Shown: in pieces, positions 5,390 through 8,261 of the stretch
Layout: the number at the start of each line of letters is the position of its first letter
Numbering within the stretch: position 1 is the first letter of the stretch
The notes under the pieces: generated by a model
The model's input: the letters and a program-made list of their open reading frames with translations, nothing else
What the model was told of the DNA's origin: nothing
Database searches by the model: none
Program-made: the position numbers and the translations under genes
Virus record (IMG/VR): IMGVR_UViG_3300023184_000191
Coordinates: 1 to 49,223 of that record
Reading direction: 5' to 3' (one strand)
Source: a virus
Length of the DNA stretch: 49,223 nucleotides

Positions 5390-6532
5390 TTATTCTAATG
5401 CAAAATGACCGTTGATCATTCCTATAAAAGATACCGCCTGATTGAAATCGTAATTCAAGTATTTGCGATCTATATTCTTTTCCACATGTTCAATTCCTTT
5501 GTGCCAACTGTGGTAAACATAAGTGTCTTTGTATGTTTTAAAGAACCAATCGTCCCATTCACATTGTGATGTAAGTCCTGGTTTGACACACTGGAACGTG
5601 TTGATATTCCATCCTGGATAGATTAAACTTCGTGTGACCACTTCGTATGCTTGTCTTAAAGAGGCGCTGCCACCGGGCCATTGCAAAATAGGTTTTAGAG
5701 CTGGGTTGCTTTCAAACCAACGTCGAATCATGTGGCTCTGTTTGATTACTATTTCTGGTAAATCCGGAGTCCAGTAAAAGAATTCAGTGTGAATATTTGT
5801 GTAATCAGGATCGTTCCAATTGCCAGTAAAGCAATTCACAATCTTGTCTAAGAAATACACACAATATTTGTTATCCTTGATGCAAATTTTGGGTTTGTCT
5901 ACTCCATATACCAACGCTGTTCGCAATCCACGATCGTGTTGATTACGATGCGCATGTTCTCTGGTCACACTCCATCTGGTCACAAACTGAGGATTCAAAT
6001 GTTCATAAGTGGTAGTTAACCATTCTTCACCATCAAACCGATTTAACTTTTCAACCACACTGTCTGACACATCGATATAGGTAATTTTAGTGCGCGGACT
6101 GTTGTCTTGTATCCACTGCAATCCTTGTTTGGTTGTGAGATCAAACTCAGCTTCAATATTCCTGGGATCAGTCACTGTGGCATCTGGTATAGATTTGTTA
6201 TCAATTTTGCGACTCCACACAGTGTATATTTCATCTATAAAACATCCAGCTGAAAAAAATGCTTGCACGGTATTCCAACTATCACTGCCACCACTGAAAA
6301 ACACAGCAACACGGTCATATTGATCTCGTATTTGCCGAGCTCGCATTTGATACAGTATTGACAAATCAGTTTCGGGTTCTACCAACCAATTTTGCGACCT
6401 CCACACAGCATCATTAAAATGCCATGTGGGGTGTAGGTTCTGTTGTGTGCCTGCTATCAGCGCATCAATCTTGCTGTGATACACAGTGGATCCCACTGTG
6501 TAATATCCCAGTCGTTGATTTGTAACTGTCAC
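5390..6532 (-). CDS. PP-loop ATPase (N-type ATP pyrophosphatase)
   Basis: 380 residues. The P-loop SGGSDS (residues 80-85, within AVFFSGGSDSW) is the diagnostic motif of the family that adenylates a carboxylate, carbonyl or thiolate, and includes QueC, TilS, asparagine synthetase and NAD synthetase. The rest does not match a family I can name; it is longer than QueC (about 230) and lacks its clustered zinc cysteines.

Translation starts at a GTG overlapping the TGA of the TctC-like gene (GTGA), so the two are coupled. A role in the 7-deazaguanine pathway in place of QueC is possible but unproven; an amidotransferase-like role in surface modification is equally possible. Confidence 0.8.
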   Translation of the reverse strand: MTVTNQRLGYYTVGSTVYHSKIDALIAGTQQNLHPTWHFNDAVWRSQNWLVEPETDLSILYQMRARQIRDQYDRVAVFFSGGSDSWNTVQAFFSAGCFIDEIYTVWSRKIDNKSIPDATVTDPRNIEAEFDLTTKQGLQWIQDNSPRTKITYIDVSDSVVEKLNRFDGEEWLTTTYEHLNPQFVTRWSVTREHAHRNQHDRGLRTALVYGVDKPKICIKDNKYCVYFLDKIVNCFTGNWNDPDYTNIHTEFFYWTPDLPEIVIKQSHMIRRWFESNPALKPILQWPGGSASLRQAYEVVTRSLIYPGWNINTFQCVKPGLTSQCEWDDWFFKTYKDTYVYHSWHKGIEHVEKNIDRKYLNYDFNQAVSFIGMINGHFALE

Positions 6533-7419
6533 TGACGTTCAATGCCTTTGGTGATTGTTGCCCATCTAACAATGTTGTCTTGATGTAGTTTTTTTGCTGA
6601 ATCGTAAGAAAACTTTTCTGTGACACCATAATTATCACTACAGATTTTTTTCACGTTGTCTTGATTTGCTGTTGCTAGAATAGAGGATAATTCTTGTTTG
6701 ACAGCATCATCAACAGTGCTTGGTACAAAAAAGTAATCAGTTGAGGTAATTGATTCCAGTCCCTGCACATTCTGTGATTTAAATGTAACAAACCCAGTGA
6801 TGTTTCGGTCACCAGTTATACCAATAATTTTAACGTCAGGAGTCATTCTGCCCAGTGTCATTGGACCTAAAAAATCCACACTGGCATCTAAGTGACCACC
6901 CAGCATGTCACCGGATGCTTCGGGAGTTCCCTTGTATGCTATTTCGTTAATTTTTACATTGCTGTTGTTCTGAATACCTTTTGACACCAGTTGAGTAATA
7001 CTGCCAGATACCAAGCCCAGAGACAGGTCTCGGTTGCTAACGTCAGTTACTCGACTGTATTTTTTACTGAATACTGCCAATGGCATTTTGCTGCAAAATT
7101 CACCAATCATGCTGAGTTGATTGACATCATGACTTTCTTTGAACAAGTTGGGTCGAACATAGAAGCTACTGGATATGGCCAATACTGTTACTGCTCGGTC
7201 ACTGATTACTGAATTCACAGCAATACTACCACCAGCACCTGGCTTGTTGTCGTACACAAACTTGTATTTGGTCTGTGCGGTGTTGGCATTGTCTATTATT
7301 TGGCGTAGCATAGCTGAGTCGGCACCAGCAGGAGAGAATGGCCAAACAATCTTGACCATGGTCTCAGCCGACGCTGACACTGCCAACACTGCCAATAATG
7401 CAAATAAAATTTTACGCAT
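6529..7419 (-). CDS. TctC/Bug-family periplasmic substrate-binding protein
   Basis: 296 residues with a signal peptide cleaved after ASA (about residue 18). Family hallmarks are WPFSPAGADSAMLRQ (26-40, usually VPFxPGGxxDxxAR), NKPGAGGSI (58-66) and YKGTPEASGDMLGGHLD (162-178). The length matches the family (about 300).

These receptors bind carboxylates or other small solutes for tripartite tricarboxylate transporters and are hugely expanded in Burkholderiales. No TctA/TctB membrane genes are nearby, so it would have to use host permeases or act alone. It lies 14 bp after the outer-membrane protein gene in one operon. Such receptors are rare in phages and point to a betaproteobacterial host. 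Confidence 0.9.
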   Translation of the reverse strand: MRKILFALLAVLAVSASAETMVKIVWPFSPAGADSAMLRQIIDNANTAQTKYKFVYDNKPGAGGSIAVNSVISDRAVTVLAISSSFYVRPNLFKESHDVNQLSMIGEFCSKMPLAVFSKKYSRVTDVSNRDLSLGLVSGSITQLVSKGIQNNSNVKINEIAYKGTPEASGDMLGGHLDASVDFLGPMTLGRMTPDVKIIGITGDRNITGFVTFKSQNVQGLESITSTDYFFVPSTVDDAVKQELSSILATANQDNVKKICSDNYGVTEKFSYDSAKKLHQDNIVRWATITKGIERQ

Positions 7420-7433
7420 GATTGGCTCCTAGA

Positions 7434-8057
7434 TTAGAATTTGTAAGTGACACCAATACCGGTGTAATCTTCATATGTCTTGGGCACAACGCCCAGCGCA
7501 TTTTGCCATCCACGGCTGGCACGGAGGTTCACACTGAACCGGTCGTTGATGGGTATGCTGTAGTTGTTCAACCACATGACCTGCTCCAAGTGTCCTGACT
7601 CGTGATTTACACGTCGTGTGATAGCAGTATTCCAGCGACCTGGACCAATCTTGACGCCGGCACCAACACCAACTCGTCCATACCAGTAACCAGTACCAAC
7701 TGCACCATTTTGTCCATCATCATATCCTATGCCCACATATGGACGCAGGGTAACAGTGCTGTTGATGGCATAAGATTTGCCCACACTACCTTCAAAGTTG
7801 TTCCACATACCCCAACCACTGGAACTTTTGAGTTTGCTACTGGCAACAGATGAGTTGGGGTTTGACCCGTATGTGACAGTTCGATCTGACAGGCCATAGT
7901 CAATGCCGTCTATGGTGTCGTTCCAGCGCAAGATATGCGCAGTACCGCCCACGTCAGCGGCTTTGTTGTACACATGATCCTGATCAACACCAATGGTGCC
8001 GGCCATGGACCACAGCGAAGTTAACATCATCGCGGATGTGATTAAAAGTTTTTTCAT
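7434..8057 (-). CDS. outer-membrane beta-barrel protein
   Basis: 207 residues. A signal peptide ends at SMA-G (about residue 19). The mature chain alternates polar and aromatic residues in strand-like blocks (for example TVTLRPYVGIGYD and YWYGRVGVGAGVKI), and it ends ...GIGVTYKF with the terminal Phe that BAM substrates carry. Size suits an 8-strand barrel.

An AGGA ribosome site precedes the ATG, and a consensus promoter lies 176 bp upstream. Phage outer-membrane proteins are few; known examples alter porin content or block superinfection. The family could not be named. Confidence 0.8.
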   Translation of the reverse strand: MKKLLITSAMMLTSLWSMAGTIGVDQDHVYNKAADVGGTAHILRWNDTIDGIDYGLSDRTVTYGSNPNSSVASSKLKSSSGWGMWNNFEGSVGKSYAINSTVTLRPYVGIGYDDGQNGAVGTGYWYGRVGVGAGVKIGPGRWNTAITRRVNHESGHLEQVMWLNNYSIPINDRFSVNLRASRGWQNALGVVPKTYEDYTGIGVTYKF

Positions 8058-8230
8058 TTGGATTTTTCCTAAAAAGTCTATACCTAAGTATAAAAAATTC
8101 AGCTGTGGAAGATGTCCACGTTACGGATGGCGTTCCATGAGTATCACCATGGTAAAAGGGTTCAACTACCCCAGGCGTCAATTTTGCCCGACGTCAGCCC
8201 CTGCTGGCGTTGCTAAATCTATTTATATTT
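8058..8230 (-). promoter_or_regulatory. long 5' leader of the envelope operon
   Basis: About 170 nt are transcribed before the outer-membrane protein ATG. The leader contains a GTGGA/TCCAC hairpin near 8104-8118 and several shorter stems. A 65-codon frame overlaps it (7984-8181) but has no ribosome site. Small-RNA regulation is common for outer-membrane protein leaders; here that is inference. Confidence 0.35.
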
Positions 8231-8232
8231 TG

Positions 8233-8261
8233 ATTATATAGGATTTAATTTTTTCCGTCAA
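8233..8261 (-). promoter_or_regulatory. consensus sigma70 promoter of the envelope operon
   Basis: TTGACG (8256-8261), 17-bp spacer, TATAAT (8233-8238) on the minus strand. It would drive the outer-membrane protein, TctC-like and PP-loop genes independently of upstream transcription. Confidence 0.85.

Follow-up and report, generated by a model that had tools for sequence, protein, structure and literature searches.

An outer-membrane barrel, a TctC-type receptor and a PP-loop ATPase encoded in one operon of a jumbo phage: a candidate carboxylate uptake-and-activation module

The locus that is described here lies on a 49-kb IMG/VR virus fragment of 49,223 nt (the window, by which we mean this whole stretch of DNA) and comprises three genes on the minus strand that encode an outer-membrane protein (OMP; 7434-8057), a TctC/Bug-type periplasmic receptor (6529-7419) and a PP-loop ATPase (5390-6532). 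A sigma-70-like promoter, TTGACG-17-TATAAT (8233-8261, minus strand), which matches the consensus at 11 of 12 positions, precedes them. Promoter-like sites with an 11/12 match occur nine times on the minus strand of the window and never on the plus strand, and nearly all of the window genes run in this same direction; because the minus-only sites fit the gene direction, the promoter match is probably meaningful. The start codon of the OMP gene is preceded by a leader of approximately 170 nt (8058-8232, minus strand) that ends in an AGGA ribosome-binding site; a riboswitch in this leader was considered and discarded, as Rfam gave no credible match. The TctC gene starts 14 nt past the OMP gene and has an AGGAG ribosome-binding site, while the GTG start of the PP-loop gene lies within a 4-nt GTGA overlap with the TctC stop codon, through which the two genes are predicted to be translationally coupled. 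The open reading frames and the promoter bear out the gene identities and the co-transcription that were proposed in the initial annotation; its span of 6529-8261 holds the OMP gene, the TctC gene and the promoter but omits the PP-loop gene, which is part of the operon.

Several other elements of the window were recorded. A small alpha/beta hydrolase gene (8274-8867, minus strand; Abhydrolase_6, E 6e-6) is placed between the operon promoter and a permuted (two-piece) tmRNA with the tag ANDEQFALAA (8947-9310, minus strand; RF04321, 138 bits), and another permuted tmRNA, with the tag ANDEVYALAA, is found in a relative (L183:14804-15217, plus strand). GOLLD, a large ornate RNA of unknown function, is located at 1825-2291 (minus strand; RF02032, 187.7 bits) inside the phage tRNA array, where it overlaps a tRNA-His(atg) call. 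The minus strand additionally encodes a QueE-like radical-SAM protein (19959-20801), a B12-binding radical-SAM protein (21547-23550) and a PTPS/QueD-like protein (24396-24926), and a role of these genes in 7-deazaguanine or another modification is possible. Sugar-nucleotide genes at 27098-28015, 29058-29645 and 29629-30591, also on the minus strand, encode two NAD-dependent epimerases and a DegT-type aminotransferase fragment.

The window derives from a jumbo phage. Its DNA polymerase (36567-39224, minus strand) has relatives on IMG/VR contigs with up to 97% identity, including one of 85% on a 364-kb contig, and Sinorhizobium phage Phosso and Agrobacterium phage Atu_ph07, both jumbo phages, are among the closest named ones (48-51%). 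The relatives are metagenome contigs without assigned hosts. Among plasmid records, the porin of one of them, G036, was matched exclusively in Burkholderiales, which hints at the host, and the hosts of the phage clade are probably Burkholderiales. When 32 records were picked by their DNA polymerase alone, TctC was present in six of them and in 3/4 of those of at least 90 kb. When the TctC, OMP and PP-loop proteins of the window were used singly as queries against viral and phage collections, no matches were returned, and the TctC family was reached only via the DNA-polymerase relatives and profiles. A profile scan of IMG/VR that was based on five phage TctCs revealed 172 relatives, from which 79 loci were kept; altogether, the 86 loci that were analysed carry 119-121 TctC copies. 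Each of 14 large contigs (97-374 kb), 13 of which were selected for carrying TctC, encodes between one and four copies. The initial annotation regarded neither the OMP nor the receptor as a normal phage gene, and this does not hold for the clade, in which TctC is common and several members encode porins.

The assignment of the window protein (296 aa, with a signal peptide) to the TctC-type receptors, which had been made from the sequence alone, was confirmed. It matches PF03401 with an E-value of 1e-10 and 42.1 bits (cut-off 27) over positions 3-271 of the 274 in the profile, and its relatives in the PDB are 7ndr and Bug27 (2qpq), both with an E-value of about 2e-8, a homology that suggests a Venus-flytrap fold. 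A hydrophobic N-terminus was found in all 119 phage TctC copies and an AxA-like cleavage site in 86 of 89, which points to export to the periplasm. Most of the phage copies belong to one main subfamily that is marked by the motif ANxxQxxYxF. In the phylogenetic tree, this subfamily formed a single group (support 98/90) that included the window protein and was separated from eight cellular TctCs; because these eight plasmid-borne sequences are the only cellular TctCs in the tree, a single acquisition is not claimed. The closest plasmid-borne cellular TctCs are approximately 26% identical to the phage protein. When about 85,000 genomes were scanned for the subfamily motifs, 49 pattern matches and no relatives were obtained; the result means that the motif-bearing subfamily was not detected in these cells and says nothing of the rarity of TctC there. 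Among the named phages of INPHARED, the subfamily was not found, apart from two faecal 'Bacteriophage sp.' records without annotation, whose matches were weak. The main subfamily accordingly appears to be phage-restricted. Moreover, a literature search that left out most subscription journals found no published description of TctC in phages.

These observations bear on whether the operon belongs to a phage at all. IMG/VR contigs are metagenome assemblies without isolates, and bacterial contamination or a chimeric contig could place such genes in a virus record. The window polymerase, however, is present on every TctC contig above 200 kb with 72-85% identity, the TctC subfamily appears confined to phages, the frames are intact and the gene set recurs in many samples. 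Based on the polymerase co-occurrence, the motif scan of cell genomes and the TctC tree, this explanation was ruled out, and we regard it as hardly credible.

Clustering of the genes in the neighbourhood of TctC showed that two kinds of partner recur: the PP-loop protein, with 84 copies in 57 of the 86 loci, and a TRAP binding protein of the DctP type, with 58 copies in 51 loci. Some of the loci are near-copies, and the counts that follow refer to a non-redundant set of 89 TctCs. In this set, a PP-loop gene adjoined TctC on the same strand in 41 cases, compared with 14.5 +/- 3.3 (maximum 25) after shuffling, and a DctP-like gene in 34, compared with 9.5 +/- 2.7 (maximum 20); as the shuffling was restricted to loci that hold a TctC, it tests adjacency and not presence. 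Within three genes of TctC, the PP-loop gene was found in 59/89 and the DctP-like gene in 50/89 cases. The exact 4-nt overlap of the window recurs in sixteen TctC/PP-loop pairs. Across the phages, the main partner of TctC is therefore the PP-loop protein, together with the DctP-like protein, and not the barrel of the window. The DctP-type proteins (for example, L095:694-1647, minus strand, and L096:4337-5308, plus strand, as well as those of 49 other loci) match PF03480 with an E-value of 5.5e-40 and have an invariant TYSGG motif. Only 2% of them have a hydrophobic N-terminus compared with 100% of the TctCs, and they lack a signal peptide and are apparently cytosolic. No DctP-like gene was found in the window fragment. 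In L098-L100 and L125, a short AMP-forming ligase gene replaces the PP-loop gene beside TctC (L098:6513-7601; L100:7728-8810). Gene pairs that encode AhpC (peroxiredoxin)/AhpD-like proteins were also observed near the PP-loop/TctC module (L095, L113, L114, L154, L163, L168 and others), and genes of these two kinds often lie just upstream.

The PP-loop protein (380 aa, with an SGGSDS loop) has no match in Pfam or NCBIfam. A model that was built from 47 phage sequences reached a pLDDT of 90.5 and a pTM of 0.91, and the residues S80, G81, G82 and D84 were invariant in all 47. The closest structures were those of asparagine synthetase B (1ct9; Z 12.5), beta-lactam synthetase (11.4) and carbapenam synthetase (9.4), and the protein is predicted to have the fold of the asparagine/beta-lactam synthetase superfamily with an SGGxDS PP-loop. 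The step that these three enzymes have in common is the adenylation of a carboxylate, and the modelled fold suggests the same chemistry for the phage protein. The model aligns from about residue 71 of AsnB, with the N-terminal glutaminase (Ntn) domain absent, and asparagine synthetase B proper was rejected on account of this missing domain and of the missing family match. Membership in the QueC family was likewise rejected, as there were only sub-threshold matches, in a relative.

The OMP (207 aa) has a signal peptide and, as the initial annotation had noted, ends in YKF; it belongs to no Pfam family and no significant PHROG. Its AlphaFold model, which was built from three sequences and was the one good model of five, is of moderate confidence (pLDDT 72.8, pTM 0.67) and shows ten strands in addition to a signal helix. 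The closest solved structures include the ten-strand barrels OpcA (Z 20.0), Pla (18.3) and pOmpT (17.4). Considering the signal peptide, the barrel and the C-terminal aromatic residue, at the moderate confidence of the model, the protein is predicted to be an outer-membrane beta-barrel. With the window OMP as the query, no match was found in the genome contig collection or among the 32 relatives. The family was seen solely beside TctC, on either side, in both of the other contigs that bear it (downstream in L162 and upstream in L186). A phage-encoded barrel could also act in superinfection exclusion, the third role that the initial annotation suggested, by replacing or masking a host receptor, with TctC blocking a periplasmic step in the DNA entry of other phages. 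The fold is that of surface adhesins and proteases, and phage-encoded outer-membrane proteins with a role in exclusion exist, such as the Lc porin of phage PA-2. Exclusion would, however, leave the PP-loop and DctP-like partners, the phage TctA and the many divergent TctC copies unexplained; it is possible, but the conserved linkage does not point there and we consider it improbable.

The relatives provide the wider context of the receptor. In G036 (L184, 344 kb), the genes follow in the order porin (Porin_4, E 6e-37), TctA (E 2e-58), TctC-like protein and PP-loop protein (230 bits), and the last two genes overlap by 4 nt; the TctC-like protein is secreted and has a weak resemblance to TctC (no Pfam match; 28 bits to the phage TctC profile). 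TctA was found on three of the 14 large contigs; besides G036, two contigs, apparently of one virus, carry it approximately 6 kb from TctC. None was found in the window fragment. Additionally, barrels of the Porin_4 type are encoded near TctC in L116, L120 and L157, and those of the Gcw_chp type in L117, L128 and L176. In L182, a PstS-type phosphate-binding protein (6458-7459, minus strand; PBP_like_2, E 3.5e-39) adjoins a phage TctA. Based on this context, a secreted TctC that occurs with porins and at times with TctA is most simply explained by carboxylate uptake. Uptake could be an end in itself, with TctC and the barrel raising the import of a common carboxylate as a carbon or energy source in the manner of PstS, and with the PP-loop protein sharing the transcript and serving a separate function. 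The TctA and porin genes near TctC, the PstS-type protein near TctA in L182 and the several TctC copies per contig are all consistent with such plain nutrient uptake, whereas the conserved tie of TctC, with overlapping frames, to a PP-loop gene or to an AMP-forming ligase argues against it, and we hold it to be a serious but rather unlikely explanation. Bug-dependent signalling is known in Bordetella, and a phage TctC might similarly alter host gene expression via Bug-responsive two-component sensors rather than take part in transport. Orphan Bug proteins without a permease are common in Burkholderiales (PMC5812351), and most of the phage contigs lack TctA; the phage TctA and the porins near TctC in several relatives are at odds with signalling, which we judge to be very unlikely.

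The reading that we favour is a phage-encoded carboxylate uptake-and-activation operon, to which we assign a probability of roughly one half. The barrel in the host outer membrane would admit an organic acid, which the secreted TctC would bind and pass to a tripartite tricarboxylate permease, either that of the host or, where a sister phage encodes one, the phage TctA. The co-translated PP-loop enzyme would adenylate the carboxylate in the cytoplasm, and the activated acid would be amidated or joined to a partner and would enter a phage-directed pathway. The tie of TctC to an enzyme of the AsnB/beta-lactam-synthetase type or to an AMP-forming ligase suggests cytosolic activation of the imported acid, for which there is a cellular precedent in TctC genes that adjoin an enzyme acting on the imported acid (PMC5812351). 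That a related set occurs in dozens of giant viruses suggests that infected hosts are made to take up a particular organic acid and to process it. Two of the roles suggested in the initial annotation, boosting carboxylate uptake and feeding a modification pathway, gain support from the gene order of G036, from TctA on 3/14 contigs and from the resemblance of the PP-loop protein to carboxylate-adenylating synthetases. The points against uptake and activation are that the window fragment and most relatives have no TctA, that the PP-loop protein falls into no Pfam family and that three sequences and one good model of five underlie the predicted barrel.

A more far-reaching and tentative version, which we think is probably too specific, is a dedicated phage pathway to catch, import and activate an acid, in which a phage-restricted receptor family, diversified to several copies in a genome, commonly works with an adenylating enzyme of its own (AsnB-like or AMP-forming), often along with the cytosolic TRAP-type protein. 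An acid from the environment would thereby become a building block that is specific to the phage and might serve, for example, to modify nucleotides, RNA or surfaces. What can be seen is that this jumbo-phage clade keeps one to four secreted carboxylate-type receptors per large contig, tied to a synthetase and in some cases also to a permease and a porin. If uptake and activation are correct, the phages of this clade divert the uptake of organic acids in their hosts, which are probably Burkholderiales, and carry out chemistry on the acid that is taken up. The receptor-enzyme pairs are a ready set for finding the substrate.

The TctA domain hit on a SUP05 virus contig (PMC4164917) had already hinted at a TTT component in a virus; in contrast to the present set, it was a lone permease hit with no binding protein or synthetase named. 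The phage TctC shares the Pfam family and secretion with the Bug/TctC proteins (Bug27 2qpq; 7ndr) and has retained the PGAGG region and the YKGTPEA...GG region of the second domain; it differs in its apparent phage restriction, the ANxxQxxYxF motif, the identity of about 26% to the nearest plasmid-borne cellular copies and the PP-loop enzyme as a partner. The PP-loop protein has the same predicted fold and SGGxDS PP-loop as the AsnB, beta-lactam and carbapenam synthetases but neither the N-terminal glutaminase domain nor a Pfam/NCBIfam match. The OMP has the strand number and fold of the OpcA adhesin and the omptin-type barrels (Z 20.0 to 17.4) but is shorter and only about 10% identical to them, with no shared function on the present evidence; the comparison with omptins concerns the fold alone, and no protease is claimed. 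To our knowledge, PstS is the main known case of a periplasmic binding protein that is encoded by a phage. The phage TctC genes are recurrent, intact and phage-adapted in phage genomes, as befits auxiliary uptake genes. Like the cyanophage PstS (PMC6359870), TctC is a phage-encoded periplasmic nutrient-binding protein that usually comes without the membrane part, but it is a carboxylate-type receptor of another transporter class, with a co-translated synthetase, a barrel and several divergent copies per genome.
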